From positions 49,776 through 113,775 of the forward strand of contig JAFROT010000030.1 of NCBI GenBank assembly GCA_017429525.1: 64,000 nt of DNA. The letters run 5' to 3'. The notes beneath the pieces are model-generated. The model saw only the letters and a list, made by a program, of their open reading frames with translations. It was not told the DNA's origin and made no database searches. Below, in pieces: positions 4,519 through 53,046 of the stretch; positions within the stretch are counted from its first letter, which is position 1, and the number at the start of each line of letters is the position of its first letter. A program made the position numbers and the translations under genes. The stretch comes from Bacteroidaceae bacterium. Lineage in GTDB: Bacteria; Bacteroidota; Bacteroidia; Bacteroidales; Bacteroidaceae.

Positions 4519-6369
4519 TTATTTCTTCTTGAAGATATACGCTATGCTCTCGCGAAGTATTTGGGCCCGGGCAATCCAGAGGCTACCGACGTAAAGGACG
4601 ACGGCGATGACGATGCGGAGGCACATACGGAGCCACGAGATGGGAAGTGACTGGGTGGCGAAGTAGGCGACGGCCATCACGGCGAGGGCGAAGACGAAGA
4701 AGGGTGCGATGTCCTTCAGGGCGTGCCACCAGCGGAGGCCTATGAGACGACGGGCGCAGGCCTGCCAGACGAACAGCCAGGCGATGTTCAGGGCGACATA
4801 GAAGATGACCATCTCGTGGAGACCGTAGCCCAAGGCGTGCAAGACGATGATGCCGCCCCAAACGAAGGCGCAGTTCAACAGGCCGATGACCATATTGATA
4901 GTAGAACGCCCGCGCGAGATGACGAGGTTGCTGTAGAGCGTCACCACGGGCGAGAAGGCGCCGTAGACGCAGAGCATGGACAGCAGCAGCGCACTGTCAT
5001 GCCACTTCTCGCCGGCCAACAGTACGATGAAGTCTTCGGCGATGAGGGCTAGGCCCAGGAGGCAGGGGAAGGAGACGAAACAGGTGAAACGGAGGAGTTT
5101 GCGGAAGACGACAGCAGGCCCACCCTCAGCAGACCCACCCCCGACCTTACCCGTCCTCAGCAGAGGAGTTCTTGAAGTGTCAAGCGTCCCTTTGGGTCGA
5201 GCGCTGCTTCGGTCGCTCAGGACGGCTTGACATTTAGTCAACCCGATATTTCCTTCGCTACCCGTGAGGGAGGGGAGAGGCTGCGCAGAGTATTCTTCAT
5301 TCAATCCGGAGGGCTCCCCTTCCTCACGGGAGGGGTCGGGGGTGGGTCTGCTGGGGGTTTGTCTGCTACTTTCCCTCAGCACCGGTTGTGCCACGCCCTG
5401 CACCATGCCTCCGATAGTGGCGATGGCCATATCGTCCCATTTGCGGGCGTTGCTATAGATGCCGGCAAGATGTCCGCCAGGATAGAAACGGTTGAGGAGG
5501 ACGCCAAAGGCATTGTTGTTCAGTTGGAAAGCGAGGCTGTTGATGAGGAGCTTTGACGAGAAGCCGAACATCTGCCAGGCAGGACGAAGAAGAGTGAAAA
5601 GTGAAAGAATGAAAAGTGAAAAATAAGCTTTACTCTTGGACATAGAAAGCCCTTGTAACTTATATTTTTCACTTTTCATTCTTTCACTTTTCACTTCTTT
5701 CTGCACCGCAGGAAGACTCGGTCGCCACGGTGAAAACGCCCAGGCGAAGGCGGTGACGGAGGCCACGTAAACCAGGCTCTGGGCGGCTAAGCCCCAATAG
5801 GCGAAACCGGCGTAGGCGAGGCAGACGCCGACGATGCCCGAGAGGGTGATGGAGGCCATCTGCATGATGCTGGTCTGCTTCACCATCAGATGGCCGAAGA
5901 GGTATGCCCGCTGGGCGGTGCCGAAGCACGAGAACACGAAGCCGAGGAAGGCAAAACGTCCGAGGGGGCAGAGGACGGGTTCGTTGTAGAAATCGGCAAT
6001 CAGCGGGGCGGCAAAGAAGAGGAGGACGTAGAGCACGAGGCCCACGATGACGTTGAACCAGAAGACGGCGTTATACTCCTCATGCGTCGGTTCGCTCTTG
6101 TTGGCCAAGGCCGCCGTGAAACCGCTCTCCTGCAGCACGCTGGCGATATTCGAGAAGATGACCAGGGCGGCCATCTTACCATAGTCGTCAGGGTCGAGGA
6201 TATTGATGAGCCAAAGGCCGAACAAAGCCCCCAACAGCTGTACTATGCCGTTGCTGAAGCCTCCCCAGATGAGGCCTTGGGCGGTGCGGCGCTTTAAGGA
6301 CAGACCCCCTCCCCGTTCCTCCTCAAGGGGGAGAGTGGAATGTGTTTGAGAGGGAGAAATCTTTTTCAT
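4519..6369 (-). CDS. Polysaccharide/O-antigen flippase (Wzx/MATE-like) with two in-frame repeat insertions
   Basis: A 616-residue multi-pass membrane protein of the polysaccharide biosynthesis/export (Wzx-like) family, expected to flip lipid-linked sugars across the inner membrane. The family-like region begins at about residue 26 (KRRTAQGLIWGG) and continues through about 12 hydrophobic segments. Two stretches look foreign: residues about 224-261, encoded by a perfect 33-nt inverted repeat (5593-5625/5663-5695), and about 327-418, encoded by a Pro/Ser/Gly-rich segment bounded by a 20-nt inverted repeat (5127-5146/5334-5353). The start codon and first 18 codons are part of a 99/100-bp tandem array that continues upstream. 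The frame stays open, so the gene may work with cytoplasmic or loop insertions, but it could also be decaying. Confidence 0.85.
   Translation of the reverse strand: MKKISPSQTHSTLPLEEERGGGLSLKRRTAQGLIWGGFSNGIVQLLGALFGLWLINILDPDDYGKMAALVIFSNIASVLQESGFTAALANKSEPTHEEYNAVFWFNVIVGLVLYVLLFFAAPLIADFYNEPVLCPLGRFAFLGFVFSCFGTAQRAYLFGHLMVKQTSIMQMASITLSGIVGVCLAYAGFAYWGLAAQSLVYVASVTAFAWAFSPWRPSLPAVQKEVKSERMKSEKYKLQGLSMSKSKAYFSLFILSLFTLLRPAWQMFGFSSKLLINSLAFQLNNNAFGVLLNRFYPGGHLAGIYSNARKWDDMAIATIGGMVQGVAQPVLRESSRQTPSRPTPDPSREEGEPSGLNEEYSAQPLPSLTGSEGNIGLTKCQAVLSDRSSARPKGTLDTSRTPLLRTGKVGGGSAEGGPAVVFRKLLRFTCFVSFPCLLGLALIAEDFIVLLAGEKWHDSALLLSMLCVYGAFSPVVTLYSNLVISRGRSTINMVIGLLNCAFVWGGIIVLHALGYGLHEMVIFYVALNIAWLFVWQACARRLIGLRWWHALKDIAPFFVFALAVMAVAYFATQSLPISWLRMCLRIVIAVVLYVGSLWIARAQILRESIAYIFKKK
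5127..5353. repeat. 227-bp segment bounded by 20-nt perfect inverted repeats, inside the flippase gene
   Basis: CAGCAGACCCACCCCCGACC at 5127-5146 and its exact reverse complement at 5334-5353 enclose a segment that also contains a copy of the CTTGAAG/TCAAGCG repeat family (about 5168-5235). It is translated in frame as part of the flippase. Near-identical arms appear in the ychF-lgt spacer (35221-35384). Confidence 0.85.
5593..5695. repeat. 33-nt perfect inverted repeat with 37-nt loop inside the flippase gene
   Basis: Arms 5593-5625 and 5663-5695 are exact reverse complements, built from the phrase GTGAAAAGTGAAAGAATG. The spacer after the V-ATPase subunit I gene (24884-24912) uses a similar phrase. 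The segment is AT-rich in a GC-rich gene and is translated in frame. Confidence 0.9.
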
Positions 6370-6740
6370 AGGGGAATCGTGCTGCCTTCTTATCTATACC
6401 TGAGGGTATCTACCCTCCCCTTTGAGGAAGAGAGCGGACTGTGCTTGAGAGGGAGAGCTCTTTTTCATAGGGGAACCGTGTTGCCTTCTTCTCTACACCT
6501 GAAGGTATCTACTCTCCCCCTTGAGAGGGGAGAGTGGAATGTGTTTGAGAGGGAGAAATCTTTTTCATAGGGGAACCGTGCTGCCTTCTTATCTACACCT
6601 GAAGGTGTCTACTCTCCCCCTTGAGGAAGAGAGTGGACTGTGCTTGAGAGGGAGAGCTCTTTTTCATCGGGGAACCGTGTTGCCTTCTTCTCTACACCTG
6701 AAGGTATCTACTCTCCCCCTTGAGGGGGAGCGGGGAGGGG
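6329..6740. repeat. 99/100-bp tandem repeat array, about four copies, spanning the flippase start codon
   Basis: The block containing CTTTTTCAT recurs at 6361, 6460, 6560 and 6659, a spacing of 99, 100 and 99 bp. Alternate copies resemble each other more closely (GAAATC versus GAGCTC before the T run), so the higher-order period is about 199 bp. On the minus strand each copy carries ATGAAAAAG and a short ORF of 19-24 codons that ends in TAG; only the copy at 6369 runs on, into the flippase. The last partial unit also supplies the final codons of gltX. The gap between gltX and the flippase holds nothing else. Confidence 0.9.
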
Positions 6741-8294
6741 GTCTGCTTCAATCGCAAATTCCATCCTCCTGAGCACCTCCTCCTTACCGAGGAAGGCAGC
6801 GAGGCCGTACATATCGGGACCTTGACCTTCGCCGACGAGGCAGACACGCCAAGCGTTCCAGGGCTTGATGCCCGTCTGCTCGACCCACGGGTCGACAACG
6901 GCCTTCTGACCTTCGACCGAGAAATCGTCGATGGAGGCCAGGACGTCGTGCAGCTGTTGCATCTCGGCGGCCGTCTCGGGCTTCCAGTTCTTCTTGATGA
7001 ACTTATCCTCGCGATTGAACTCGGTCGGTGCCACGAAGAAGAAGCGGCAGAGGGGCCAGAGGTCGCTGACGAACGAGATGTTGCGCTTCTTCGTGCCCTC
7101 CTTCGTCTCGTACTCGATGACCTTGGACTTCATCATGCCTACGACCTGGGCTGCACGCTCCTCCGAGCAATCTATGCCCTGTTCCTTCAGCAGCTTGACG
7201 AAGGCGGGCGCCCACTGCTCGTCGGTGAGCTTCATCAGGTATTCGCGGTTGAACCAGAAGCCTTTGACATAGTCGAAGCGTGCGCCGTTCTTCGAGCACT
7301 TCTCGAGGTTGAACTTCTGGATGAGCTCGTCCATCGACAGGATCTCCTGATCGTCGCCGGGGTTCCAGCCGAGCAGGGCAAGGAAGTTGACCACGGCCTC
7401 GGGCAGATAGCCCTTCTCGCGATAGCCGCTGCTGATCTCGCCGCTCTTGGGGTCGTGCCATTCGAGTGGGAAGACGGGGAAGCCGAGGCGGTCGCCGTCG
7501 CGCTTCGAGAGCTTGCCTTTGCCGTCGGGCTTCAGCAGCAGCGGCAGATGGGCGAAGCGCGGCATCGTGTCTTGCCAGCCGAAAGCGCGGTAGAGCAGCA
7601 CGTGGAGCGGTGCCGACGGCAGCCACTCCTCGCCGCGGATGACGTGCGTCACCTCCATCAAGTGGTCGTCGACGATGTTGGCCAAATGGTAGGTCGGCAG
7701 CTGGTCGGCGCTCTTCCACAGCACCTTATCGTCGAGGATCGAGCTGTTGATGCAGACGTCGCCGCGAATGATGTCGTCGACGTGTACATCCTCGCCCGGT
7801 TCGATGAGGAAGCGGACGACGTAGGGGTGACCCTCAGCGATGAGGCGGTCGGTCTCTTCTTTACCTAAAGTCAGCGAGTTGCGCATCTGTCCGCGGGTCG
7901 AGGCATCGTACTGGAAGTTCTCCACCTGCTCGCGTTTGGCGGTCAGCTCCTCGGGCGTATCGAAGGCGATGTAGGCGCGTCCGGCATCGAGAAGTTGTTT
8001 GACATATTCCTTATAGATCTCCTTGCGCTCGCTCTGGCGGTAAGGGCCGTGGTCGCCGCCGAAGCTGACGCCCTCGTCGAACTTGATGCCGAGCCAGCGG
8101 AACGACTCCAGGATATATTCCTCGGCTCCGGGCACGAAGCGTGCAGAGTCAGTGTCCTCGATGCGGAAGATGAGCTCGCCGCCATGCTGGCGGGCGAAGA
8201 GATAGTTATACAAAGCTGTGCGGACGCCGCCGATGTGGAGGGGTCCTGTGGGTGATGGCGCGAAGCGAACGCGCACTTTCTGAGCATTGTTCAT
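6708..8294 (-). CDS. gltX: Glutamyl-tRNA synthetase
   Basis: Charges tRNA-Glu with glutamate in the cytoplasm. It has 528 residues, normal for the family. Class I signatures are visible: the HIGH-type motif [11 protein letters not shown] with H20, and the KMSKS-type motif KLSKR at residues 261-265, followed by the anticodon-binding region. The last residues ([10 protein letters not shown]) are encoded by the repeat array that fills the downstream spacer, so the native end probably lay a few codons earlier. A TACCTTTG promoter lies at 8320-8327. It is the first gene of a five-gene minus-strand run. Confidence 0.98.
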
Positions 8295-8319
8295 GGGAAA
8301 ATATATCTAAAAGTTTGTG

Positions 8320-8327
8320 CAAAGGTA
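8320..8327 (-). promoter_or_regulatory. Bacteroidetes -7 box (TACCTTTG) for gltX
   Basis: Read on the minus strand, the box lies 26 nt upstream of the gltX ATG. No convincing -33 TTTG was found. It is back to back with the plus-strand promoter at 8456. Confidence 0.65.
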
Positions 8328-8455
8328 GGAAAAAGTTTAGAGTTTCAGGGGCAGAGCGGCATGATATTTGCATATTCATCGACAATAATTGGCCTTTTTC
8401 GTGTCCTGAAATGAATTTTCGCCCTCCTCAGGCCCTATATCCCTAAACTTTTTCC

Positions 8456-8463
8456 TATCTTTG
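8456..8463 (+). promoter_or_regulatory. Bacteroidetes -7 box (TATCTTTG) for the 7TM-HD gene
   Basis: It matches TAnnTTTG and lies 25 nt before the ATG at 8488. The following GCGCCTGAA is typical of transcription starts seen elsewhere in the window. Confidence 0.65.
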
Positions 8464-8487
8464 CGCCTGAAATAACCATCATTGCTT

Positions 8488-12784: not shown

Positions 12785-12786
12785 AA

Positions 12787-16924: not shown

Positions 16925-17151
16925 ATAGAAACGGATTTTGAGGGTTGAATAATCTGCGAAACGAGTAAAAACTACAGTCATCGAAACGATTCAGCTGCAA
17001 AGTTCTTTTTTTTTATCGAAAATGCAATTTTTTTTTGCCACTAAACAGCATTTTTCCCTCAATAAAAGGTAAAAGGAGTGTGGATTTTGCCGTAAAAGGC
17101 GAGAATAATGGTGATAAAAGGCTCTGGGAATGATAAAAAAGGAAACAAAGT

Positions 17152-17182
17152 TTTGTCACACGGCAAATTATGACTACTTTTG
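17152..17182 (+). promoter_or_regulatory. Promoter of the V-ATPase operon
   Basis: A -33 TTTG at 17152-17155, a 19-nt spacer and a -7 TACTTTTG at 17175-17182 match the Bacteroidetes primary sigma consensus. Subunit E starts 44 nt downstream. Confidence 0.8.
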
Positions 17183-17225
17183 TGCGCGCAAATCCGCAAA
17201 TCATTATAAAATACTGCATAAAATA

Positions 17226-17813
17226 ATGGAAAAGATCCAAGAACTCACCGACAAAATCCGTCGCGAAGGCGTCGAGAAAGGACAGGCCGAGGCCGCCCAG
17301 ATTATCGCTCAGGCCAAAGAGCAGGCTGCAAAGATTGTGGCCGATGCGAAGGCACAGGCCGAAGCCATCGAACAACAGTCGAAGAAAGCTGCCGCCGAGC
17401 TCGACCAGAACACCAAGAGCGAGCTCAAGCTCTACACAGGGCAGGCGCTGAACGCACTCAAGAGCGAAATCGCCAACATCGTCAGCGACAAGATTGTCAG
17501 CCAAAGCGTCAAGGGACTCACCGACGACAAGAACTTCCTCGGTCAGTTCATGGTCGCACTCGCCACAGAATGGGCCAAGAAGCAGGACATCGTCATCAGC
17601 ACCGAGGATGCCGAAGCGCTGAAGGCTTACTTCGCCAAAGAGGCTAAGGCGCTGCTCGACAAGGGCGTGAAGATTGAGAAAGTAAACGGCAAGCAGACGC
17701 TCTTCACGGTGCAGCCCGCCGACGGCAGCTACCGCGTAGACTTCGGCAAGGAAGAGCTCGAGAGCTACTTCAAGAACTTCCTGCGTCCGCAACTGATTGA
17801 CATGCTGTTCTGA
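17226..17813 (+). CDS. atpE: V-type ATP synthase/ATPase subunit E
   Basis: Peripheral stalk subunit. It has 195 residues: an N-terminal long coiled coil (about 1-85, rich in Ala, Lys, Glu and Gln; QAEAAQIIAQAKEQAAKIV) and a C-terminal globular part, the usual plan for NtpE. Start ATG 17226 follows the promoter at 17175; an open extension upstream lacks family similarity and lies before the promoter. It is the first gene of the operon E-DUF2764-A-B-D-I-K. The following spacer is one of the inverted-repeat segments. Confidence 0.92.
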   Translation: MEKIQELTDKIRREGVEKGQAEAAQIIAQAKEQAAKIVADAKAQAEAIEQQSKKAAAELDQNTKSELKLYTGQALNALKSEIANIVSDKIVSQSVKGLTDDKNFLGQFMVALATEWAKKQDIVISTEDAEALKAYFAKEAKALLDKGVKIEKVNGKQTLFTVQPADGSYRVDFGKEELESYFKNFLRPQLIDMLF

Positions 17814-17926
17814 TTTAAGGATTTAAGGATTTTATATTGCAGGACCTGGCAGATGGGTGCTCTCCCGGGAACGCTCGGCCAAGCATGCAAAATCATTAAA
17901 TCGGAAATCATTAAATCATTAAATCC
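17812..17926. repeat. Spacer bounded by imperfect inverted 8-bp phrase repeats
   Basis: GATTTAAGGATTTAAGGATT at the left and, inverted, AATCATTAAATCATTAAATC at the right differ at about one base in eight. The right arm ends 6 nt before the DUF2764 ATG. Confidence 0.7.
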
Positions 17927-17931
17927 AAGAT

Positions 17932-18777
17932 ATGGCAAACTACTATTGTTTCATGGCAGGCCTGCCGACGGTCAAGCTCAACGACTCACAGCCTCAGCAC
18001 ACGCTTCTCCAACTGAAAGAGGAGCTGGCCGACGTGCTGGAGCCACAGGACGCCCGACTGATGGAGCGCTACTTCCTGCGCTTCGATTGCGAGAACCTGG
18101 TGGCACTGCTGGCCGACGAGGAAGCAGAGCTCGACGGACGTGGCTGCTATGACCGTGAAGCCCTCAACCAGCTCATCGAGGAGGCACGCGCGATGGAAGG
18201 CACCGTCAAGGGCTTTCCCGCGTTCGTGGCCGACTTCGTGCGCGACTACGATGCCCACGCCGGGCAGACGAATTGGTTCGCACGCGACGCAGCCCTGCTG
18301 GCCTACTACGACTACGCTCGCGAATGCCCCAACGCAATGATGGCTGAGTGGTACGGCCTGAACTTCAATATCCTCAACATCCTCACCGCCCTCATCGCCC
18401 GCCGACAGGGATGGGCGCTGGCCGACTACGTGCAGGGCGACGGCGACGTCGTCGAAGCCTTGCTGAAGCAGGCGGGACAAGCTGACTTCGGCCTCAGCAC
18501 TGAGCTCGACTACATGAAAGACCTCATGCAGGCCGCCGAGGATACCGATCCCGTTGAGAAGGAGCGCAGAATCGACGCCATCCGCTGGAACTGGCTCGAG
18601 GAGAAGACATTCTTTGAGCCCTTCGACATCACGGCCCTCTTCGCCTACGTCGTTCGCAGCGAGATCCTCGAGCGCTGGGCTCTGCTCGACCCCGAGCTTG
18701 GCCGTCAGCGCTTCACCGAGATCATCGAGAACCTGCGCGGCGAGGCCAAAGTGCCCGAAGAATTTATTCGCAAATAG
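17932..18777 (+). CDS. V-ATPase-associated DUF2764 family protein
   Basis: A 281-residue, acidic, mostly helical soluble protein opening MANYYCFMAGLP, which is characteristic of DUF2764. This family is found in V-ATPase operons of Bacteroidetes, spirochaetes and Chlamydia, in the place where other operons carry subunit C. No separate subunit C or F gene is present here, so it probably caps the membrane rotor or replaces C; that is inference from position. No catalytic motif is visible. It lies between E and A on the same strand, inside the operon. Confidence 0.88.
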   Translation: MANYYCFMAGLPTVKLNDSQPQHTLLQLKEELADVLEPQDARLMERYFLRFDCENLVALLADEEAELDGRGCYDREALNQLIEEARAMEGTVKGFPAFVADFVRDYDAHAGQTNWFARDAALLAYYDYARECPNAMMAEWYGLNFNILNILTALIARRQGWALADYVQGDGDVVEALLKQAGQADFGLSTELDYMKDLMQAAEDTDPVEKERRIDAIRWNWLEEKTFFEPFDITALFAYVVRSEILERWALLDPELGRQRFTEIIENLRGEAKVPEEFIRK

Positions 18778-18778
18778 A

Positions 18779-19048
18779 GGGCCCTCCCCTCCCTGTCTTG
18801 AAGCGTCCGCTCGGCATCCCGAAGGGTGACGCTTGACACTTCAAGAAGCGTCGCAAAGCGCCGAGCGGTAGGGAGGGAGCGGTCACCTATCAAGATTTGA
18901 AAACGACTATAACAAATAAATAGAAAAAGTATCTACTCCACCTACCTAAAAGGGTAGCAAGGGAAAAAGAGGTTGACTCAATGTCAAACTTTCCGAGCGA
19001 CCGAGGTTTATCTGCTAAGCTGAGGACGGACAGGCAGGGGGGTGGGCC
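18779..19048. repeat. 270-bp spacer bounded by inverted GC-rich arms, with an inner CTTGAAG repeat hairpin
   Basis: The left arm GGGCCCTCCCCTCCCTGTC (18779-18797) and right arm GACAGGCAGGGGGGTGGGCC (19029-19048) are near reverse complements. Inside, 18797-18872 holds a second hairpin with the CTTGAAG...ACTTCAAG and CGCTCGGC...GCCGAGCG pairs. The phrase AAAAGTATCTACTCC is shared with the spacer before subunit D. Confidence 0.75.
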
Positions 19049-19059
19049 TTCTAATGATT

Positions 19060-20799
19060 ATGACAAAAGGAACAGTTAGCGGCGTTATCGCCAATATGGT
19101 AACGCTCCGCGTGGACGGACCGGTGAAGCAGGGAGAGATCTGCTATATCGAGACCGGCGGCGACCGCCTCATGAGCGAGGTCATCAAGGTCATCGGTCAG
19201 GACGTCTACGTGCAGGTATTCGAGAGCACACGCGGACTGCGCGTAGGTGCTACGGCCGAGTTCACAGGCCACATGCTCGAAGTGCAGCTCGCACCGGGCA
19301 TGCTCAGTAAGAACTTCGACGGTCTGCAGAACGACCTCGACAAGATGGAGGGCGTCTTCCTCAAGCGCGGACAGTACACCGACCCGCTCGACCGCGAGCG
19401 CCTGTGGGGCTTCGAGCCTATCGTCAAGGTGGGCGACAAAGTCATCGCCAGCGACTGGCTCGGGAAGGTCGAGGAGAACTCACAGCCCCTGAAGATTATG
19501 GCTCCCTTCCAGATGAAGGGTACGGCTACGGTCAAAAGCATCGTCAAGGCCGGCAAGTACAAGGTCGACGACACCATCGCCACGCTGACCCTCGAGGACG
19601 GCACCGACCTGGACGTCAACATGATCCAGCACTGGCCCGTGAAGTTCGCTATGACCAACTACCGCGAGAAGCCCCGTCCCTTCAAACTCCTCGAGACCAG
19701 CGTGCGCACCATCGATACGTTCAACCCTATCGTCGAAGGCGGTACGGGCTTCATCCCCGGTCCCTTCGGTACGGGCAAGACGGTGCTGCAGCACGCCATC
19801 TCCAAGCAGGCTGAGGCCGACATCGTGATCATCGCTGCCTGCGGTGAGCGTGCCAATGAGGTCGTAGAGATCTTCACCGAGTTCCCCGAGCTCGAAGACC
19901 CCCACACCGGCCGCAAGCTGATGGAGCGCACCATCATCATCGCCAACACGTCGAACATGCCTGTGGCTGCCCGTGAGGCTTCTGTCTACACCGCTATGAC
20001 GATGGCCGAGTACTACCGCTCGATGGGCCTGCGCGTCCTGCTGATGGCCGACTCCACTTCTCGTTGGGCACAGGCTCTGCGTGAGATGTCCAACCGTATG
20101 GAGGAGCTGCCTGGCCCCGACGCTTTCCCGATGGACCTCTCGGCTCTGATTTCCAACTTCTACGGCCGCGCCGGATATGTCTATCTGAACAACGGCCAGA
20201 CAGGCTCCATCACCTTCCTCGGAACGGTTTCGCCTGCCGGCGGTAACCTGAAGGAGCCCGTCACAGAGAGCACCAAGAAGGTGGCTCGCTGCTTCTACGG
20301 ACTGGAACAGGAGCGTGCCGACAAGAAACGCTATCCTGCCGTCAATCCTATCGATTCCTACTCCAAGTACCTCGAGTACCCCGAGTTTGCCGAGTACATC
20401 AAGGGCCACATCAACGAAGAGTGGATCCCGAAGGTATTGGCCCTGAAGACCCGCATGCAGCGCGGTAAGGAGATTGCCGAGCAGATCAACATCCTCGGTG
20501 ATGACGGCGTACCCGTTGACTACCACGTTACGTTCTGGAAGTCAGAGGTTATCGACTATGTCATCCTGCAGCAGGATGCTTTCGACGAGGTCGATGCCGT
20601 CACGCCCCTCGAGCGTCAGGAAGAGATCCTCAACATGGTCACCACAATCTGCGAGCACGACTTCCAGTTCGACACCTTCCTCGAGGCCACCGACTTCTTC
20701 CGCAAGCTCATCAACCTGTGCAAGCAGTGGAACTACTGCAAGTACAAGAGCGACGAGTACTACGACTTCAAGAAACAGATTGAGGAATTCATTAAATAA
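19060..20799 (+). CDS. atpA: V-type ATP synthase/ATPase catalytic subunit A
   Basis: Catalytic subunit of the V1 head. It has 579 residues from ATG 19060 ([14 protein letters not shown]), the start that best matches family members; ATG 19054 and GTG 19042 are in frame upstream, the last inside the repeat arm. The Walker A GPFGTGKT has K240, followed by the GER segment (CGERANEV), and the long non-homologous insert of A subunits (about 110-185) is present. It lies between DUF2764 and B. Whether the enzyme makes or uses ATP cannot be decided from this gene. Confidence 0.97.
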
Positions 20800-20810
20800 G
20801 TTGACAAGCA

Positions 20811-20894
20811 AACAAGTTGACGAGTAGACAAGTTGATTCTCTATGCAATCACCGTCACACGTCAAGAAGCCAAGCATCAACTCGTCAACTTGTT
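20811..20894. repeat. A-B spacer bounded by 14-nt inverted repeats
   Basis: AACAAGTTGACGAG (20811-20824) and CTCGTCAACTTGTT (20881-20894) are exact reverse complements; further partial copies of the GTTGAC phrase extend both ends up to the subunit B start. Confidence 0.85.
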
Positions 20895-20924
20895 AACTCG
20901 TCAACTCGTCAACTATATAAAACT

Positions 20925-22247
20925 ATGGCACAAGCATTTCAGAAAATCTATACAAAGATCAGCCAGATCACGAAAGCAACTTGTTCGCTGAAGGCGACGG
21001 GCGTAGGCTACGACGAACTGGCCACCATCGACGGCAAGTTGGCCCAGGTGGTGAAAATCATTGGCGACGACGTGACGCTGCAGGTGTTCGAAGGCACGGG
21101 CGGCATCCCCACCAACGCCGAGGTGGTCTTCCTCGGTAAAGCTCCGACCCTGAAGGTCAGCGAGCAGCTGGCCGGTCGCTTCTTCAACGCCTACGGACAG
21201 CCTATCGACGGCGGACCAGCCATCGAGGGTAAGGAAATCGAGATTGGCGGCCCCAGCGTGAACCCCGTGCGCCGCAAGCAGCCCAGTGAGCTCATCGCAA
21301 CGGGTATTGCCGGTATCGACCTGAACAACACGCTCGTCTCTGGCCAGAAGATTCCTTTCTTCGCCGACCCCGACCAGCCCTTCAACGAGGTGATGGCTAT
21401 GGTGGCCCTGCGTGCTAAGGTCGACAAGATCATCCTCGGCGGCATGGGTATGACCAACGACGACTACTATTTCTTCCGCAACACATTCTCCAACGCCGGT
21501 GCCCTCGACCGCATCATCTCGTTCATGAACACCACCGAGGACCCCGCCGTAGAGCGTCTGCTCATCCCCGATATGGCGCTGGCTGCTGCCGAGTACTTCG
21601 CCGTCGAGAAGCACGAGACCGTGCTCGTCCTGCTGACCGATATGACTTCGTATGCCGACTCGCTCGCCATCGTGTCGAACCGCATGGACCAGATTCCTTC
21701 GAAGGACTCTATGCCCGGTTCGCTCTACTCCGACCTGGCCAAGATCTACGAGAAGGCCGTGCAGTTCCCCGAGAGCGCTGGTGGCGGCTCCATCACCATC
21801 ATCGCTGTGACCACCCTCTCGGGCGGCGACATCACGCACGCCGTGCCCGACAACACGGGTTACATCACCGAGGGTCAGCTCTACCTGCGCCGCGACTCCG
21901 ACGTCGGTAAGGTCATCGTCGACCCCTTCCGCTCGCTGTCACGTCTGAAGCAGCTCGTGGCCGGAAAGAAGACGCGCAAGGACCACTCGCAGGTCATGAA
22001 CGCGGCTATCCGTCTTTACTCCGACGCCGCCAACGCCAAGACCAAGCTCGAGAACGGTTTCGACCTCACCGACTACGACAACCGCTGCCTCGACTTCGCG
22101 AAGGACTACGCTACGGCCATCCTGGCCATCGACGTCAACGTGGACACCACCGAGATGCTCGACGTCACGTGGAAGCTCTTCCGCAAGTACTTCAAGCTCG
22201 AGGAGGTCAACATCAAGAAGGAGTTCACCGATATTTACTGGAAATAG
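20925..22247 (+). CDS. atpB: V-type ATP synthase/ATPase subunit B
   Basis: Non-catalytic nucleotide-binding subunit of the V1 hexamer. It has 440 residues from ATG 20925 (MAQAFQKIYTKISQITKA); 36 upstream in-frame codons come from the repeat spacer and are rejected. It lacks a true Walker A, as expected, and has the B-type segments FADPDQPFNEV, TDMTSYADSL and GSLYSDLAKIYE plus the arginine-finger region SRL. It is transcribed with A and followed by another inverted-repeat spacer before D. Confidence 0.96.
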   Translation: MAQAFQKIYTKISQITKATCSLKATGVGYDELATIDGKLAQVVKIIGDDVTLQVFEGTGGIPTNAEVVFLGKAPTLKVSEQLAGRFFNAYGQPIDGGPAIEGKEIEIGGPSVNPVRRKQPSELIATGIAGIDLNNTLVSGQKIPFFADPDQPFNEVMAMVALRAKVDKIILGGMGMTNDDYYFFRNTFSNAGALDRIISFMNTTEDPAVERLLIPDMALAAAEYFAVEKHETVLVLLTDMTSYADSLAIVSNRMDQIPSKDSMPGSLYSDLAKIYEKAVQFPESAGGGSITIIAVTTLSGGDITHAVPDNTGYITEGQLYLRRDSDVGKVIVDPFRSLSRLKQLVAGKKTRKDHSQVMNAAIRLYSDAANAKTKLENGFDLTDYDNRCLDFAKDYATAILAIDVNVDTTEMLDVTWKLFRKYFKLEEVNIKKEFTDIYWK

Positions 22248-22248
22248 T

Positions 22249-22373
22249 GGACCCTCCCCCCGCCCTCCCTTGTAGGGAGGGGGTGGTCACTCTCAAGAAA
22301 TGACTCAAATTAGTAACCAATAGCAAAAGTATCTACTCCCCGCCCTACAAGGGAGGGGCAGGGGGGTGGGTCC
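22249..22373. repeat. B-D spacer bounded by inverted CCCTCCCTTGTAGGG-type arms
   Basis: The left arm (22249-22277) and right arm (22343-22373) are reverse complements with a few mismatches, and each arm also folds on itself. The right arm stops 6 nt before the subunit D ATG, in the same layout as before subunit A. Confidence 0.8.
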
Positions 22374-22379
22374 TATCTT

Positions 22380-23063
22380 ATGGCTATCAAATTTCAATAC
22401 AACAAGACATCGCTCCAGCAGATTGAGAAGCAGCTGAAGATGCGACAGCGGACCTTGCCTATCATCAAGAACAAGGAGACCGCGCTGCGTCTGGAGGTGA
22501 AGCGCTGCAAGGAAGAGGTCGTCGCGTTGGAGGCGAAGCTGCAAGAGCAAATAGCCGGCTACGAGCGCATGTACGCCCTCTGGGGCGAGTTTGACGCCTC
22601 GCTGGTCGAGCTGAAGGACGTCGAGATGGATGTGAAGAAGATTGCGGGCGTGCGCGTTCCCATCTTGAAGAACATCAAGCTCGAGGCCAAGCCCTTCGGC
22701 ATCTTCAGTGCCCCCAAATGGTACTTCGACGGCATCAACCTGCTCAACGGCCTGGCCAAGACAGCCGTAGAGCGCGAGTTCGCCGTTGCCAAGTGCGACC
22801 TGTTGGACCATGCACGCCGCAAGACCACCCAGAAGGTGAACCTCTTCGAGAAGGTTCAGATTCCAGGCTTCCAGGAAGCGGTGCGCAAGATCAAGCGATT
22901 CATGGAGGACGAGGAGAACCTCTCCAAGTCGTCCCAGAAGATTCTGAAGTCGCTGCAAGAGAAGCGGCGCGATGCCGACGGCAATGGCATTGACGATGCC
23001 GACGATGCCGCAGCAATGGCCGCAGCCCTGAGCGCACAGATGAAGGAAGGAGGTGACGCATGA
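22380..23063 (+). CDS. atpD: V-type ATP synthase/ATPase subunit D
   Basis: Central rotor shaft. It has 227 residues: long N-terminal and C-terminal helices forming the coiled-coil shaft (about 5-75 and 125-205), with family segment KTSLQQIEKQLKMRQRTLP. The C-terminus carries an extra acidic tail with DADGNGIDDADD, which looks like a single Ca-binding type loop; a chance resemblance is possible. The stop overlaps the start of subunit I (ATGA at 23060), so the two are translationally coupled. Confidence 0.95.
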   Translation: MAIKFQYNKTSLQQIEKQLKMRQRTLPIIKNKETALRLEVKRCKEEVVALEAKLQEQIAGYERMYALWGEFDASLVELKDVEMDVKKIAGVRVPILKNIKLEAKPFGIFSAPKWYFDGINLLNGLAKTAVEREFAVAKCDLLDHARRKTTQKVNLFEKVQIPGFQEAVRKIKRFMEDEENLSKSSQKILKSLQEKRRDADGNGIDDADDAAAMAAALSAQMKEGGDA

Positions 23064-24883
23064 TTGAGAAAATGAAGAAACTCACGTTCCTGGTCTATCA
23101 CCGGGAATATGATGAATTCCTGCATCGCCTGCAGGAGCTCGGCGTCATGCACGTCGAAGGCGGCACCCTCGCCGAGGGGCAGTCGGAAGCCGTGACAGCC
23201 GATATGGCCGCCATCCGCCGTATCGACAGCCTCCTCAAGCAGATGGAGGAGCTGAAAGACTCCGCTGCGCCTGCCTCCACATCTTCCTACGAGAGCAGCG
23301 CTACTCCCGACGAGTGCATAGCGGAGTTGGAAGCAGCCTTTACCCGTCAGTCTGTGCTCGTCGGTCGCGAGAAGGTACTGTCCGAGCAGATCGAGACACT
23401 GACGCCCTGGGGCGAGTTCGACCCTGCCGACGTGCGCCGGCAGATGGCCGCCGCAGGTTGCGCGATGCACTTCTTCACCGCTCCCACAAAGACTTTCAAG
23501 AAGGAGATTGAGCCCAACTTCACCGTCGAAGCCGTCAACGAGGTTAAGGGCACGACCTACTTCGTCGCCATCACGCGGGGCAAGGAACTGCAGTTGCCCG
23601 CCACAGCAGTCACGCTGCCCGAAGCTTCGCTCAGCGCCCTCCGTGCTGAGCACGAGGCGATATCAGCCTCTCTGGCCGAGACGGCGACACAGCTACAGCA
23701 GCTCACGGCGGCTCACACGACCGCACTCGAGTCCTACCGCGACGAATTGCAGTCGCGCATGGACTTCGACAACGTGCGTTTCGGCACCGAGACCGCAGCC
23801 GACGACCACCTGATGGTCCTACGTGGCTGGGTGCCTGCCAAGAAGCAGGACGAGCTGCAAGCCGCCTTCGCCGACAGCGGAGCGTGGTTTGAGTTCTCAG
23901 ACCCACAGCCCGGCGACGACATCCCCATCTGCCTGAAGAACAACCGCTTCTTCCGTCTGTTCGAGATGTTCACCGAGCTGTATATGCTGCCGAAGTACAA
24001 CGAGCTCGACCTCACGCCTTTCCTGGCGCCCTTCTACATCCTCTTCTTCGGTCTCTGCCTGGGCGATTCAGGCTACGGCCTGTTCATCACGCTGGCCGTG
24101 CTGGCCGTGAAGTATTTCAAGAAGGACCTCAGCAAGAGCCTGAAGGCAGCGATGAACCTGCTGCTCATCCTGGGCATCTCGGCCTTCTTCTGCGGCCTGC
24201 TCTCGGGCGCCTTCTTCGGCTTCAACCTCTACGACCTGAACGTGCCTCTGTTCGACCGCATCGGAAATGCCGTGCATCTGGACAACAGCCAGATGTTCAA
24301 CCTCTCGCTCATCCTCGGCTTCATCCAGATCATCTTCGGTATGTGCCTGAAGGCCTACAACCAGACCATCCAACTCGGGTTCCGCTATTCGGTGGCCACG
24401 ATCGGCTGGATGATGGTCATCCTCTCGCTGGCCGTTGTGCTGCTCATGCCCGCCTACTCGGGTATCGCCAAGTGGTTCACCTACGCCGGGCTCATACTGG
24501 CCTTCTGCTACAACAGCCCTGAGCGCTACCAGAAGAACCCCGCCACAGGCTTCCTGCTCAACGTGGGCACAGGAATCTGGGATGCCTACAACACCGCCAC
24601 CGGCATGCTGGGCGACATGCTCTCTTATGTCCGCCTCTTCGCGCTCGGCCTCTCGGGCGGCATCCTCGCTACGGTCTTCGATAGTCTGGCAACGGGTCTG
24701 GCTCCTGACAACGCCATCCTCGGTCCTATCGTTATGGTGCTCATCTTCGTCGTCGGGCATGCGCTGAACATGTTCATGAATGTCCTCGGCGCCTTTGTCC
24801 ACCCGATGCGACTCACCTTCGTGGAGTTCTTCAAGAACGCTGGCTACGAGGGAGGCGGCAACGCCTACAGGCCGTTTAAGTGA
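23060..24883 (+). CDS. atpI: V-type ATP synthase/ATPase subunit I
   Basis: Membrane stator subunit (homologue of eukaryotic subunit a) that forms the ion half-channels beside the K ring. It has 607 residues: N-terminal cytoplasmic part with coiled coils (about 1-320) and about seven membrane helices from about residue 322. The key arginine region is probably in the segment LSYVRLFALGLSGGI, matching the conserved R of the family. Start ATG 23060 overlaps the D stop. The spacer after it (24884-24976) holds GAATGAAAAGTGAAGAATG phrases and no gene. Confidence 0.95.
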   Translation: MIEKMKKLTFLVYHREYDEFLHRLQELGVMHVEGGTLAEGQSEAVTADMAAIRRIDSLLKQMEELKDSAAPASTSSYESSATPDECIAELEAAFTRQSVLVGREKVLSEQIETLTPWGEFDPADVRRQMAAAGCAMHFFTAPTKTFKKEIEPNFTVEAVNEVKGTTYFVAITRGKELQLPATAVTLPEASLSALRAEHEAISASLAETATQLQQLTAAHTTALESYRDELQSRMDFDNVRFGTETAADDHLMVLRGWVPAKKQDELQAAFADSGAWFEFSDPQPGDDIPICLKNNRFFRLFEMFTELYMLPKYNELDLTPFLAPFYILFFGLCLGDSGYGLFITLAVLAVKYFKKDLSKSLKAAMNLLLILGISAFFCGLLSGAFFGFNLYDLNVPLFDRIGNAVHLDNSQMFNLSLILGFIQIIFGMCLKAYNQTIQLGFRYSVATIGWMMVILSLAVVLLMPAYSGIAKWFTYAGLILAFCYNSPERYQKNPATGFLLNVGTGIWDAYNTATGMLGDMLSYVRLFALGLSGGILATVFDSLATGLAPDNAILGPIVMVLIFVVGHALNMFMNVLGAFVHPMRLTFVEFFKNAGYEGGGNAYRPFK

Positions 24884-24958
24884 ATAATGAAGAATGAAAA
24901 GTGAAGAATGATAATCACCTTTCTATATCAGTAAAAAGTAAAATAATCAAATAATTAA

Positions 24959-25444
<486 letters not shown>

Positions 25445-35220: not shown

Positions 35221-35384
35221 CAGACCCACCCCCCGACCTCTCCCATAAGGGAGGGGAGAGGCCTGCGGATGGCGAGCAGGTGAACAAACAAACAGTTACT
35301 ACTTCAATAGTCATGATACATTCTCTAATAACCCTCTTGGCGCCAGCCCTCGCCTCCCTGACGGGAGGGGTCGGGGGAGGGTCT
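35221..35384. repeat. Inverted-repeat segment spanning the lgt start
   Basis: CAGACCCACCCCCCGACCTC at 35221-35240 and, inverted with about two mismatches, GGGGTCGGGGGAGGGTCT up to 35384. The right arm is translated as the Gly-rich N-terminal stretch of Lgt. The arms belong to the same family as the flippase insertion at 5127-5353. Confidence 0.8.
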
Positions 35385-39695: not shown

Positions 39696-39710
39696 CGCCC
39701 GAATTTCAAT

Positions 39711-39765
39711 GTGGATAGATTTGGGCTGCTTGCAACCACAGTAAAAAATGCTAAAAGAACAACCC
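39711..39765 (+). promoter_or_regulatory. Possible SAM-II-like riboswitch in the metK leader
   Basis: GTGG (39711-39714) can pair with CCAC (39736-39739), and the enclosed and following bases include GATTT, TTGCAA, GTAAAAAATGCTAAAAG, close to conserved parts of the SAM-II class (GATTTAA, TTGCAAGC, TAAATGTAGCTAAAAA). The gene product makes SAM, so feedback control fits. The second pseudoknot helix is weak when drawn by hand, so this is a candidate only. A covariance search with the SAM-II model (Rfam SAM_alpha) would decide it. Confidence 0.42.
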
Positions 39766-47115: not shown

Positions 47116-47141
47116 AGAATCCACCTCCACCACAATCCATC

Positions 47142-47342: not shown

Positions 47343-47429
47343 CAACGGTTTTTGAAATGGTAGGTTAGTTCTTTAAGTCACTTTATCGGAAAGGTAACTG
47401 GTCTCTGATGAAGCGTCATTCCCTGCACC

Positions 47430-49655
<2,226 letters not shown>

Positions 49656-49675
49656 TTACTATGAGTTTGCGAGGG

Positions 49676-49683
49676 CAAAGGTA
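49676..49683 (-). promoter_or_regulatory. Bacteroidetes -7 box (TACCTTTG) for the xylanase-esterase
   Basis: Read on the minus strand, 33 nt before the ATG at 49643. Confidence 0.7.
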
Positions 49684-50255
49684 CAAACACTTTGCCTTTC
49701 AGCTCGTTCCCTCACGTCTCAAAAACGTATAACTTTGTCTCTTTTGCTATTTTTGAGCCACTTATGCTATTCTCTAAGCCAGAGTCTCTCCTATTTTGCT
49801 CGCCTCGCAAAGGCGCCTCAAGCCTGAAGAATGATCGAGCAGAGCGCGAGCGGACGCTTCTCTCATCAAGAATAACAAGAACAAGATTAATGTATGCATA
49901 GCGTATAAAGTGCATTAGGGCTTTGTGCCAGCCATACCTCGATCCAGTTTTTCCATGAAAAATCAATCACTCGATCACTTGCTATTGAATTCCAGCCGAT
50001 TAATGGTGACAGATAGCTGAAAAATGCATCACTTTAGTGATTGAATTTAATCGTTTTAACGCCTTCATCCATTTTTCGTCTGCATGTAGATTACAACTTC
50101 GCCCCACTGCTGAATGTCTACGATTTGCTCATGGTTTACACTTAGCTATTCCCTCCTTATTTTATGGCGTGCGCTTCAACGTACACCCAGGCCTTTGCGC
50201 CTATAGCTTCTCAGCTTTTCCATTGGTGGCTAAACCGATTTCGACCAGTGCTTAA

Positions 50256-50330
50256 CAGTTTTCCAACTGGTTGGAAAACCGAATTCATCCAGTTCCTTTC
50301 AGTTTTCCAAGCGGTTGGAAAACCGAATTC
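50256..50330. repeat. Two direct copies of a palindromic GTTTTCCAAC/GTTGGAAAAC element
   Basis: Copy 1 (50256-50286) and copy 2 (50300-50330) are 31 bp, 44 bp apart start to start, each a near-perfect palindrome (GTTTTCCAACTGGTTGGAAA) followed by ACCGAATTC. Paired palindromes of this size could be operator sites. Confidence 0.8.
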
Positions 50331-50481
50331 CTACCGTGAACTGGTAGCTAACGACACATCTGTTGTCAGCTGACGACGTCCGAGCAGCTCGACCTGCTCA
50401 CGTCAAACTGCAGCATACCGGATAGAGCTGCCCTGACGGAAAGCAGTCGATTTTGGTGTCAACCCCCATTTTGGAGGCATG

Positions 50482-50565
50482 ATCTATCACTAAATCACCC
50501 ATCAATCACCGTATCTGTCACTTGTAATCTATTGACTCTCAATAGCGAGTGATTGAGTGATAGAT
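50482..50565. repeat. 17-nt inverted repeat, 50-nt loop
   Basis: ATCTATCACTAAATCAC (50482-50498) and GTGATTGAGTGATAGAT (50549-50565) match at 16 of 17 positions. The phrase ATCACTCnATCAC also occurs near 49962-49982. Confidence 0.75.
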
Positions 50566-50740
50566 TTATTGAGGAAAAACGTATAAGAGGATATGTTTTA
50601 TTCCTATTATCAGGGCTATCGGAGGCGAGGATGCCATTTTTTTCGGAAAAAAGTTCGGGATTCGTGTAGTTTTTTCTTCCTTTGCACGTCTAAAGGGTGT
50701 AAGACGCAAGAAAAGTTGAACACAAAATGTAGCTTTTGAC

Positions 50741-51214
50741 ATGAATCTGAACGAACAACAATTTACGCAAATGGTTGAGCGGCAGAAGAGTACCATTTAC
50801 ACGGTCTGCTATATGTTCTCCAAGGACAAGGACGAGGTGAACGACCTCTTCCAGGAGGTGCTCCTCAACCTGTGGCGCGGCTTCGAGCGCTTTGAGGGAC
50901 GCTCCGACGTGCGCACCTGGGTCTATCGCGTGGCCCTCAACACGTGCATCAGCCAGGACCGCCGCCGCCGTCGCCGCTCGGATGTGGAGCTGTCCATGGA
51001 CATCGACCTCTTCCGTGACGCGGATGCTGACACGCGGCAGGTGGACCTCCTGCACAAGCGCATACAGCGGCTGCAACCATTCGACCGCGCCATCGTGCTG
51101 CTCTGGCTGGAGGACTTGTCGTACGACGAGATCGCGCAGATCGTGGGCATCACCACGAAGAACGTGTCCGTACGGCTCGTGCGCATCAAGGAGCAGCTCA
51201 AACGAATGTCTTAA
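50741..51214 (+). CDS. ECF-type RNA polymerase sigma factor (sigma-70 family)
   Basis: A 157-residue sigma factor with region 2 (about 8-75; VCYMFSKDKDEVNDLFQEVLLNLW) and region 4 (about 105-152; LWLEDLSYDEIAQIVGITTKNVSVRL), no regions 1 or 3. A basic run RRRRRR joins the two. A weak -7-like TTCCTTTG lies at 50677-50684. The stop is in the first of three 25-bp tandem repeats. The membrane protein downstream may act as its partner, but it lacks a recognisable anti-sigma domain. Start ATG 50741. Confidence 0.92.
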   Translation: MNLNEQQFTQMVERQKSTIYTVCYMFSKDKDEVNDLFQEVLLNLWRGFERFEGRSDVRTWVYRVALNTCISQDRRRRRRSDVELSMDIDLFRDADADTRQVDLLHKRIQRLQPFDRAIVLLWLEDLSYDEIAQIVGITTKNVSVRLVRIKEQLKRMS

Positions 51215-51264
51215 GGAGCAGTTCAGACGAATGTCTCAAGGAGCAGCTCAGACGAATGTCTTAA
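51190..51264. repeat. 25-bp tandem repeat, three copies, covering the sigma factor stop
   Basis: GGAGCAGCTCAAACGAATGT plus CTTAA repeats at 51190, 51215 and 51240 with one to three changes. Copy 1 encodes the last residues EQLKRMS and the stop. The unit is not a multiple of three, so gain or loss of copies upstream of the stop would change the C-terminus. Confidence 0.92.
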
Positions 51265-51291
51265 ATGTCAAACCCTTAACCCCGACAAGAA

Positions 51292-52644
51292 ATGGATAAT
51301 ATGGAACTCAACGAGTTGCGCCAGCAGATGGCTCTTCTCAAGGAAAAAATAGACAGCCAGCAGATTGTCAACGAGCAGCTGGTGCGTCAGACGGTCGACC
51401 GCAAGGTCAGCACCATCAGTCGCGTGCGTCGCGTCAAACGAATCTATCTCATCGCTGCATTGTTCTTCGTGCCGCCCATGATGACGAGGTTGCTGGAGGC
51501 GCCCATGTGGTTTGCCATGGCCACAGCGGCCATGCTGGCCATCGCCGTCATCTACCACGAACTGATCATGGAGCACATCGACACCGAGGACGTCAACCGC
51601 CTGAGCTCGATGGAGATCAGCCAGAAGGCGCTACGTATCAAGGAACAGGGTGCGCGCTGGCTGTGGGTGGGCATCCCGATGCTGGTGGCATGGATTGGCA
51701 CGTTCGCCTACGTCGTGCTCCACTCCGAAGCCTACGACGGTGCTGCCGAGGAACTGCTGGGCGGCCTCATCACGGGTGTCGTCATCGGTGCCGTGCTGGG
51801 CTACGCCATCTACCGCCGTCAGCAGCGCATGATCGACGACTTGCGCAGAAGCCTGGTCTGCGACGAGGAGCAAACGGCGAACTTCAGCGCGCACAAGAGC
51901 CCGTCGTACCTGCAGCGCATAGCAGCCATTTTCCTGGGGCTGCTGCTCGTGTCGACCATCGCTGTCGCCCTGAGCCGTCACGCTAACTTCTGGCGAGGGG
52001 CAGAACTGACCGCCATCCGCCCGTCGCACGTAGAGCCGCTACCCTCCCTCAGCGCCGATGACTACCGCCGCCTGAGCCGCGAACTGGACGAGGGCACAAT
52101 CGAACTGACCGACTCCATCGACTCGCTGCTGAAACTGCCCATTTACCGCGACCTCTACGGCAATTCTTGCAGCTGGTACTGCGGCGGAACGCCCGACACC
52201 GTGTTGGCGTCCAGCATATTAGCGCCTATGGGATGCATCACCTACGACGCCACCAATGCCCACGATTTCAATCACGAGAGCGTCTGGGCCGAGGGGGCTA
52301 AAGGCAACGGCAAGGGCGAATGGATCGAATATCGCTTCCATGGCGACTGCCCACGCATCACGACGGTGAAAGTGCTGAACGGCTATGTCCGGACAGAGCA
52401 GCAATGGAAGGAGAACGCCCGCATCCATCACCTGAAGATGTACTACGATGGCAAGCCAACGCTTGTGCTGGAACTCGACGACACGCGCGACTTGCAGGTG
52501 TTCAACATCGGAACCTTCGGTCCTCACGATGCTGCAGCCCCGGAGTGGAGCCTCCGCTTTGAGATCGTGGACGTCTACCCCGGCACGAAATACGACGATG
52601 CCGTCCTCTCGGAGCTCTATTTCGACGGTATCGACGTCCATTGA
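51292..52644 (+). CDS. Membrane protein with C-terminal discoidin-like (NADase-type glycan-binding) domain
   Basis: A 450-residue protein. The N-terminus (about 1-45) is a coiled coil (LRQQMALLKEKIDSQQ); five hydrophobic segments follow (about 52-70, 75-90, 120-140, 150-170, 208-228). The rest is extracytoplasmic. The end (about 330-450; GEWIEYRFHGDCPRI, then VKVLNGYVRTEQQW and DVYPGTKYDDAVLSELYFDG) matches the discoidin-like domain family named after NADase-associated glycan binding. It follows the ECF sigma gene, so a sensor or anti-sigma role is possible but there is no direct motif for it. Function unknown. Confidence 0.8.
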   Translation: MDNMELNELRQQMALLKEKIDSQQIVNEQLVRQTVDRKVSTISRVRRVKRIYLIAALFFVPPMMTRLLEAPMWFAMATAAMLAIAVIYHELIMEHIDTEDVNRLSSMEISQKALRIKEQGARWLWVGIPMLVAWIGTFAYVVLHSEAYDGAAEELLGGLITGVVIGAVLGYAIYRRQQRMIDDLRRSLVCDEEQTANFSAHKSPSYLQRIAAIFLGLLLVSTIAVALSRHANFWRGAELTAIRPSHVEPLPSLSADDYRRLSRELDEGTIELTDSIDSLLKLPIYRDLYGNSCSWYCGGTPDTVLASSILAPMGCITYDATNAHDFNHESVWAEGAKGNGKGEWIEYRFHGDCPRITTVKVLNGYVRTEQQWKENARIHHLKMYYDGKPTLVLELDDTRDLQVFNIGTFGPHDAAAPEWSLRFEIVDVYPGTKYDDAVLSELYFDGIDVH

Positions 52645-52748
52645 GCAGCGTCTTGACCTGAGCCTCCTCCCCTCGAGAACAAACTCCGCTGCCCTTCGAA
52701 AAACAAACTCCGCTGCCCTCGATAGGAGAGCAGCGGAGTCGTGTTTGC

Positions 52749-52822
52749 TGGTTGGGATACCCGGATTCGAACCAGGAAAAACAGAACCAAAACCTGTTGT
52801 GTTACCATTACACCATATCCCA
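52749..52822 (-). tRNA. tRNA-Gln (anticodon TTG)
   Basis: On the minus strand the acceptor stem TGGGATA/TATCCCA, D arm, anticodon loop TTTTGGT with anticodon TTG, and T arm with GTTCGAATC fold correctly. Discriminator A at 52752 and an encoded CCA at 52749-52751. A TACCTTTG promoter lies at 52853-52860, 31 nt upstream. Confidence 0.95.
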
Positions 52823-52852
52823 ATCCTAAGGCTTTTATCGCTAAAAGCGCGG

Positions 52853-52860
52853 CAAAGGTA
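52853..52860 (-). promoter_or_regulatory. Bacteroidetes -7 box (TACCTTTG) for tRNA-Gln
   Basis: Minus strand, 31 nt before the mature tRNA 5' end. Confidence 0.75.
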
Positions 52861-52879
52861 CAAATTTTTAATGGATAAT

Positions 52880-53046
52880 GGACAATGGATGATGGACAAT
52901 TATCGGCTCAACGTCCAATATTTAACGTTCTTTTACAAGCAAAGGCTCAATAATCTTTGTTCGTTGCCCAACTTTCCGCCCGAGCTTGCTCGCTTCTTGA
53001 AGTTTCAAGCGTCGCTACGCGCCGAGCGGTCCATTATCCATTGTCC
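52880..53046. repeat. Inverted-repeat segment between tyrS and tRNA-Gln
   Basis: GGACAATGGATGATGGAC (52880-52897) and GTCCATTATCCATTGTCC (53029-53046) match inverted at 17 of 18 positions. Inside, 52991-53030 carries a CTTGAAG...TCAAGCG family copy. Confidence 0.85.

Follow-up and report, generated by a model that had tools for sequence, protein, structure and literature searches.

Short-unit palindromic segments in a Bacteroidaceae genome as probable non-coding relatives of elements encoding the 23S rRNA intervening-sequence protein

Small dispersed intergenic hairpins linked to a protein partner are well known in bacteria in the form of REP/REPIN sequences and their RAYT transposases. The present analysis concerns segments bounded by inverted repeats in a 64,000-nt stretch of a Bacteroidaceae genome (assembly GCA_017429525.1, contig JAFROT010000030.1, positions 49,776 to 113,775 of the forward strand; hereafter the window), to which three other described systems come close. 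On the intervening sequences (IVS) of 23S rRNA, PMC4990558 describes a Coxiella IVS of 428 nt with tandem heptamers before an S23 open reading frame (ORF), reports excision of the IVS by RNase III for Coxiella and cites it for other bacteria, and presents the S23 protein of Xanthomonas campestris as a homopentamer built of four-helix bundles. Rickettsia palindromic elements (RPE) are about 150 bp long and fall into ten families, with nearly half of the elements inserted in genes (reviewed in PMC10969869). TAACTGA heptamers form mostly intergenic tandem arrays in Beggiatoaceae, where many directly precede start codons or lie within operons for ribosomal proteins, and occur also in Cyanobacteria and five Bacteroidetes; PMC4679880 offers an unidentified repeat-binding protein, possibly with a mobile element, as one possibility for them, and the words S23, helix bundle and intervening are absent from the text of that paper.

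An earlier note on the window had pointed out eight spacer segments with reverse-complement ends, named below by their first positions. We consider it likely that those built of short units are non-coding members of a large and diverse group of small mobile, IVS-like elements that encode the 23S rRNA intervening-sequence protein (IVP). The segments with GC-rich arms (5127, 18779, 22249 and 35221; G class) may be a companion family that behaves similarly, although a partner protein was not found for them. In a full-length element, a few tandem units of 7-8 nt make up the left arm; a gene for a four-helix IVP of about 120 aa follows, and the right arm is the reverse complement of the left. The short forms, mostly 70-180 bp, retain the arms and a small core. 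The observations behind this reading are the anatomy of the elements, their dispersal, their presence or absence at orthologous junctions, their in-frame occurrence in one gene, the co-directional placement of the IVP genes and the matching of arms with IVP. The features of the window are as follows.

4519..6297, minus strand: host ORF, a polysaccharide flippase with two inserts (Pfam Polysacc_synt_3; relatives aligned)
5113..5367, minus strand: G-class palindromic element, arms 5113-5154 and 5326-5367 with 35/42 paired, in frame in the flippase ORF
5593..5695, minus strand: AGTGAAAAG-class short-unit element, 33/33 arms, in frame in the flippase ORF
6289..6755, no strand assigned: G-class arms around about four tandem copies of about 100 nt (6301-6745; copy number by eye)
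17130..25444, plus strand: V-type ATPase (V-ATPase) operon (E, DUF2764, A, B, D, I, K), in which the presence and absence of segments were compared
17812..17926, plus strand: GATTTAAG-class element that fills the V-ATPase E-DUF2764 junction
18775..19053, plus strand: G-class element at the DUF2764-A junction with a nested palindromic insert in its left arm, the weakest of the eight
20799..20914, plus strand: GTTGAC-class element at the A-B junction
22249..22373, plus strand: G-class element at the B-D junction
35222..35384, plus strand: G-class element at the junction of YchF with the following gene, which we take to be Lgt
52875..53051, minus strand: AATGGAC-class element next to the 3' end of a gene for a tRNA synthetase, of tyrosyl type according to Pfam

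All eight segments lie where the earlier note had placed them. Within 20 nt of their ends, pairing is complete (20/20) for 5127-5353 and 5593-5695, the latter with all 33 arm positions paired, 17/20 for both 20811-20894 and 52880-53046, and 15/20 for 22249-22373; it drops to 8, 9 and 10 for 17812, 18779 and 35221, respectively, and in these three even the best arms pair imperfectly (29/40, 20/23 and 37/44). When each segment was compared with 200 shuffles of its own letters, imperfect arms being allowed, seven of the eight scored above all shuffles. The eighth, 18779-19048, missed by one point (score 25 vs. 26), and its left arm appears by eye to be broken by a second palindromic insert. Exact inverted repeats with arms of at least 14 nt and loops of 30-260 nt were then counted against shuffled DNA, as the earlier note had suggested, in 464 kb of the 3.3-Mb genome, made up of the window and 20 additional stretches of 20 kb. 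They proved over-abundant, with 34 merged segments vs. none in each of three blockwise dinucleotide shuffles; seven of the 34 fall in the window, and these include five of the original eight. A looser scan returned 42 elements vs. none in one shuffle. On these tests an origin by chance is rejected. An assembly artefact is unlikely because such segments recur across many separately assembled genomes, including metagenome-assembled genomes (MAGs). An Rfam scan of the window found only a tRNA and a SAM-II riboswitch (39705-39764, above the gathering score), and no known Rfam family at the segments.

The arms had been described as differing from one segment to the next, which holds for half of the set: 5593, 17812, 20811 and 52880 represent four different classes of short units (AGTGAAAAG, GATTTAAG, GTTGAC and AATGGAC, respectively), whereas the four G-class segments share one GC-rich arm type, which is also that of 6289-6755 and, by eye, of about 13 of the 42 elements of the looser scan. 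Nor are the arms unrelated one-offs, since the classes recur across the genome and in congeners and several match the ends of IVP-encoding elements. A 19-nt word of the GTTGAC class (at most two mismatches) has 59 matches at 22 places in the genome by our count, vs. one for a control pattern. With several arm classes in the window's genome and in congeners, a single mobile element of constant ends is rejected as their source, and the earlier view to that effect stands.

Several repeats in or beside these segments deserve mention in their own right. The tandem-copy element 6289..6755 adjoins a Glu/Gln-type tRNA synthetase gene. A smaller second palindromic repeat, CTTGAAG...GCCGAGCGG (18797-18870), is nested by eye in larger elements of different classes, and related pieces can be seen, also by eye, near 5170-5240 and 52985-53035. 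Positions 49947-50580 of the window and another locus of the same genome (L160:7134-7721) have in common a long inverted repeat with TCTATCACTAAATCAC units, which may be another short-unit family.

The V-ATPase operon allowed a comparison of orthologous junctions. Here DUF2764, A, B and D were named by Pfam, and E (no Pfam match), I and K by position. We used 80 loci around the A gene in related MAGs, the best 80 of 260, with titles of Bacteroidaceae, Prevotellaceae, Bacteroidales or Candidatus Colivivens, many from herbivore gut. Across the E-DUF2764, DUF2764-A, A-B and B-D junctions of these loci and the window, 292 spacers were measured, of which 135 are at most 30 nt, 31 are 31-59 nt and 126 are at least 60 nt long; at E-DUF2764 alone, 38 of 79 loci have at most 30 nt. 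Whole segments thus come and go between homologous spacers, as the comparison proposed in the earlier note could reveal. An inverted repeat score of at least 26 is reached by 92 of the 126 long spacers at the four junctions, by only 3 of 20 long spacers at I-K, and by 14 of 1400 shuffled spacers (I-K included). A single junction carries different arm classes in different species, and in one relative whose A subunit is 96% identical to that of the window (L004) the spacers at A-B, B-D and DUF2764-A measure 9, 0 and 16 nt. With six duplicate spacers dropped from the analysis of arm position and pairing, left arms start at the stop codon (median -3), and a median of 7 nt separates the end of the right arm from the start codon that follows; in the window, right arms end just before the DUF2764, A and D start codons, as had been described. 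The A-B spacer of L022 and the B-D spacer of L007 are near-empty junctions with short leftovers that resemble pieces of GTTGAC-class arms, possibly deletion scars of such elements.

Two of the segments, 5127-5353 and 5593-5695, had been taken for spacers. Both in fact lie in frame inside one polysaccharide flippase ORF (4519-6297, minus strand). Of the 17 elements called inside genes, 16 leave an open frame through the element, a count to be read with the gene caller in mind (a home-made hexamer score with longest-start ORFs, so that some in-gene calls may be start-choice errors, 20799-20906 being one) and with the fact that chance alone can leave a GC-rich insert open in two or more frames. 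The two flippase inserts were checked against 27 relatives. At the 5593 point, an insert is lacking in 15 relatives, and four show 15-24 additional nt; an element of the same class is present in two (L238, L239), and six have other inserts, GC-rich in L240 and of AATGACG type in L241, with the remainder in L242, L248, L249 and L252. At the 5113 point, the window's element is found in none of the 27, and short-unit inserts are found in two (L254, L256). Tolerant points of the protein seem to be used repeatedly for insertion.

The longest spacers led to the protein. Fourteen spacers of at least 400 nt occur among the 80 loci, 11 at DUF2764-A, two at A-B and one at B-D, and all of them contain an ORF of 95-127 aa, flanked in the DUF2764-A spacers by short-unit arms; a 507-nt I-K spacer contains no ORF of this kind. 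All six of the ~120-aa proteins scanned match TIGR02436 (four helix bundle protein) above its cut-off. With the model PF05635 (23S rRNA intervening sequence protein), the window's genome gives six matches, four of them over the cut-off and three of those strong. Matches over the cut-off were obtained for 86 of 101 genomes of the genus, for 113 of 148 of the phylum (the window's own included) and for none of 14 controls. A solved relative of the IVP is 2gsc (XCC0516). Loci were fetched for the higher-scoring of the listed matches (30 search loci and 60 genus regions, with six matches in the window's own genome), and 115 of 119 IVP profile hits were kept after those with short flanks and duplicates were dropped, 106 of them in the window's phylum and the other nine on plasmids of cyanobacteria. 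In 102 of the 115, the ORF is flanked by inverted repeats that score above all 60 letter shuffles made for each. The median element length in the examined set is 469 bp, and self-similarity of the arms peaks at shifts of 7 nt (0.53), 14 nt (0.47) and 8 nt (0.41). Both flanking genes were called for 84 of the 95 non-plasmid elements: 79 lie between two genes co-directional with the IVP, and in the remaining five the downstream gene is on the other strand. Stop codons in all three frames occur in 51 of 102 left arms (shuffle mean 25) and 51 of 102 right arms (shuffle mean 10), so that both arms exceed shuffles and a one-sided design with a left-arm bias finds no support. By repeating out of frame and carrying stops, the 7-8-nt units may render insertions at the ends of genes harmless. 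The window's genome also has a third IVP copy (L114; G000:C2:101785-102084), which contains an internal stop codon and lies beside AAATTTAG-type units.

Arms and protein vary together. The sharing of arm 6-mers correlates with IVP similarity at 0.585, whereas the highest value in 1000 permutations was 0.068. Where the flanks are unlike, a share of more than 20% of the arm 6-mers is reached by 21 of the 25 pairs whose protein similarity exceeds 0.7, vs. 1.1% of the 2804 pairs in which it is below 0.3; where the flanks are similar but the protein similarity is below 0.5, the same share is reached by one pair of 30. The arms track the protein more than the locus, and because unlike-flank pairs with similar proteins share arm words, the matching is not only a matter of shared descent at one locus.

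Several observations connect these elements with the segments of the window. Congeners have IVP elements at four junctions that hold short elements in the window, DUF2764-A (11 loci), A-B (two), B-D (two, L013 and L139) and YchF-Lgt (eight). The GTTGAC word is present in 7 of the 102 IVP elements, at least five of which clearly belong to that class (L119, L120, L126, L136 and L140), and TTCATAATTC-type arms are present in 11 of the 102. AATGGAC arms occur in the window's own genome around the IVP gene of L112 and in the non-coding 52875-53051. In the TTCATAATTC class, several short elements have GCTACGCCC beside the left arm, and some long elements have the reverse-complement-like GCGTAGC next to the right arm (both by eye).

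A number of findings weigh against the reading of the short-unit segments as relatives of mobile IVP elements. Among the long spacers at the four junctions, 34 of 126 fall below the arm cut-off (score 26), and 13 of 115 IVP ORFs are without clear arms, in a sample drawn mostly from higher-scoring matches. In the wider phylum the arm test is passed by no more than 17 of 32 ORF rows, some rows being ORF fragments. AATGGAC is the only short-unit class of the window's genome with a resident arm-matched IVP in the fetched sequence, and none of the 102 elements has GATTTAAG, AGTGAAAAG or AATGACG arms. IVPs with GC-rich arms were not seen in the examined elements either, and the 23-nt core of the 22249 element recurs at three places in the genome (at most three mismatches), two of them in the window, which is fewer than expected: the G class is shared by arm type and not by core. 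Covariation of arms and protein is also expected from block inheritance without binding. Movement of the elements and binding of the arms by the IVP are inferred.

In the reading favoured here, the IVP, whose solved relative is described as a pentameric ring, would recognise its own class of element by the tandem units or by the folded arms, in DNA or RNA form, and would help insert copies of the element, short forms being moved in trans. Cutting and joining would be left to replication or repair enzymes of the host, because no other ORF was seen in the elements.

An explanation that we regard as unlikely, if worth keeping in mind, is that these are classical miniature inverted-repeat transposable elements (MITEs), i.e. 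non-autonomous remnants moved by a transposase encoded elsewhere (e.g. HUH/Y1 or DDE) with the IVP as a mere passenger. Small size, dispersed copies with terminal inverted repeats, and in-frame insertions all fit MITEs, and the genome has one Y1 transposase match just over the cut-off. That match spans 47 model positions (E 2e-4) in a genome about 86% complete, and a strong resident transposase of the Y1 family, the one searched for, is disfavoured. The ends of the elements are not fixed but vary with the IVP, and target duplication at the IVP forms, whose edges are approximate, does not rise above control (matches of at least 5 nt in 10.0% vs. 9.2% of mismatched pairs). Several classes share their ends with IVP-encoding parents; the IVP is not a known transposase.

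It is also rather improbable that the elements spread as retroelements, with a folded RNA copied back by a reverse transcriptase and the IVP acting like the homologous Avd of diversity-generating retroelements. PMC10053308 states that PF05635 resembles Avd, is likely homologous to it and is frequent in that paper's data. The Avd equivalog model gave 19.8-36.8 bits for four of the six IVPs, with the other two not listed, far below its cut-off of 80, and there is no reverse transcriptase (PF00078) match in the ~86% complete genome, although such a gene could sit in the missing part or only in donors.

The earlier note had considered co-transcribed hairpins, and the segments might be regulatory structures kept by selection between operon genes, tuning translation, mRNA processing or coupling. 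The tight placement of the arms between stop and start codons and the co-directional genes around 79 of 84 IVP forms would suit this role. Conserved hairpins are nonetheless an improbable account, weakened by orthologous junctions that are often empty or occupied by another class, and by the two elements inside a gene. On the sense strand, G.U pairs are fewer than A.C pairs (112 vs. 177 in 96 IVP elements, 108 vs. 160 in 89 spacers), and since selection on a sense RNA hairpin should favour G.U, their deficit disfavours one; the A.C excess could reflect which unit variants sit in each arm, and we rest nothing on it.

Inverted duplication, the other origin raised earlier, could act locally through template switching by the replication machinery. 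It would explain why arms match each other and yet differ between loci, and tandem units are prone to slippage, but it is very improbable as a one-step process without a mobile element, given that the same arm classes, some with shared cores, stand at unrelated loci, that arms accompany the IVP from locus to locus, that orthologous arms change separately by gain or loss of units (by eye, A-B spacer of the window vs. L002), and that arm likeness between species (0.87; 113 pairs with like IVPs at one locus) is about that within an element (0.90), which gives no strong sign of ongoing arm-to-arm copying.

The reading of the segments as IVP-group elements can be taken a step further, and we offer this extension tentatively: the group may be a transposase-free mobile class whose elements encode no machinery beyond a single small ring-forming IVP and a pair of mirror-image heptamer arrays, and every IVP lineage would read a heptamer of its own. 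If true, this would join ribosomal intervening sequences, the heptamer repeats of cyanobacteria (known as STRR), Beggiatoaceae and Bacteroidota, and in-gene palindromic elements. IVP elements would be a possible source for the long-known heptamer repeats, and the matched arms give a testable role to the IVP/S23 family, which is without known function in the papers seen. The match of arms and protein also points to a process by which sequence enters operons between their genes, and proteins in frame, with effects on annotation and on the evolution of operons and proteins. Our search, which covered open-licence PubMed Central but neither preprints nor subscription papers, showed no paper in which the IVP is linked to matched heptamer arms or to palindromic elements, whether intergenic or in genes.

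Cyanobacterial plasmids carry IVP elements as well. IVP matched 29 such records, and of nine loci read, seven have inverted arms above shuffles; in a Pseudanabaena plasmid the arrays around the IVP look direct, not inverted. In a Picosynechococcus plasmid the element lies between cas10 and a cmr3-family gene. IVP genes stand amid CRISPR-Cas genes in two plasmid loci, L228 (cas10/cmr3-family) and L234 (cas6/cas4), and a figure legend on CRISPR associations in PMC10910872 lists the IVP. The association could be one of insertion rather than function.

Compared with the known systems, the elements come near to the 23S rRNA IVS with its S23/IVP ORF in having the same protein family, stem-forming ends around the ORF, tandem short units (heptamers in Coxiella) before it and a similar size. 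The protein is a feature of the long forms, the window's own segments being short forms without an IVP. They differ from the IVS in lying between protein genes and inside an ORF, several per genome, in including non-coding short forms, and in having arms that vary with the protein; no 23S rRNA location was found among the loci examined, the Rfam scan covering the window only. With RPE, compared here by description only, and with other MITEs they share the palindromic form and in-frame insertion in coding genes, but they have arms of short units and longer forms that encode an IVP. TAACTGA heptamers are direct repeats, whereas the units here are paired as inverted arms around an IVP. Unlike REP/REPIN, the elements have the IVP and not a Y1 transposase as partner, and their arms are tandem units of many sequences. 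We place them as a variant of the IVS/MITE kind, with a real chance of being something more.

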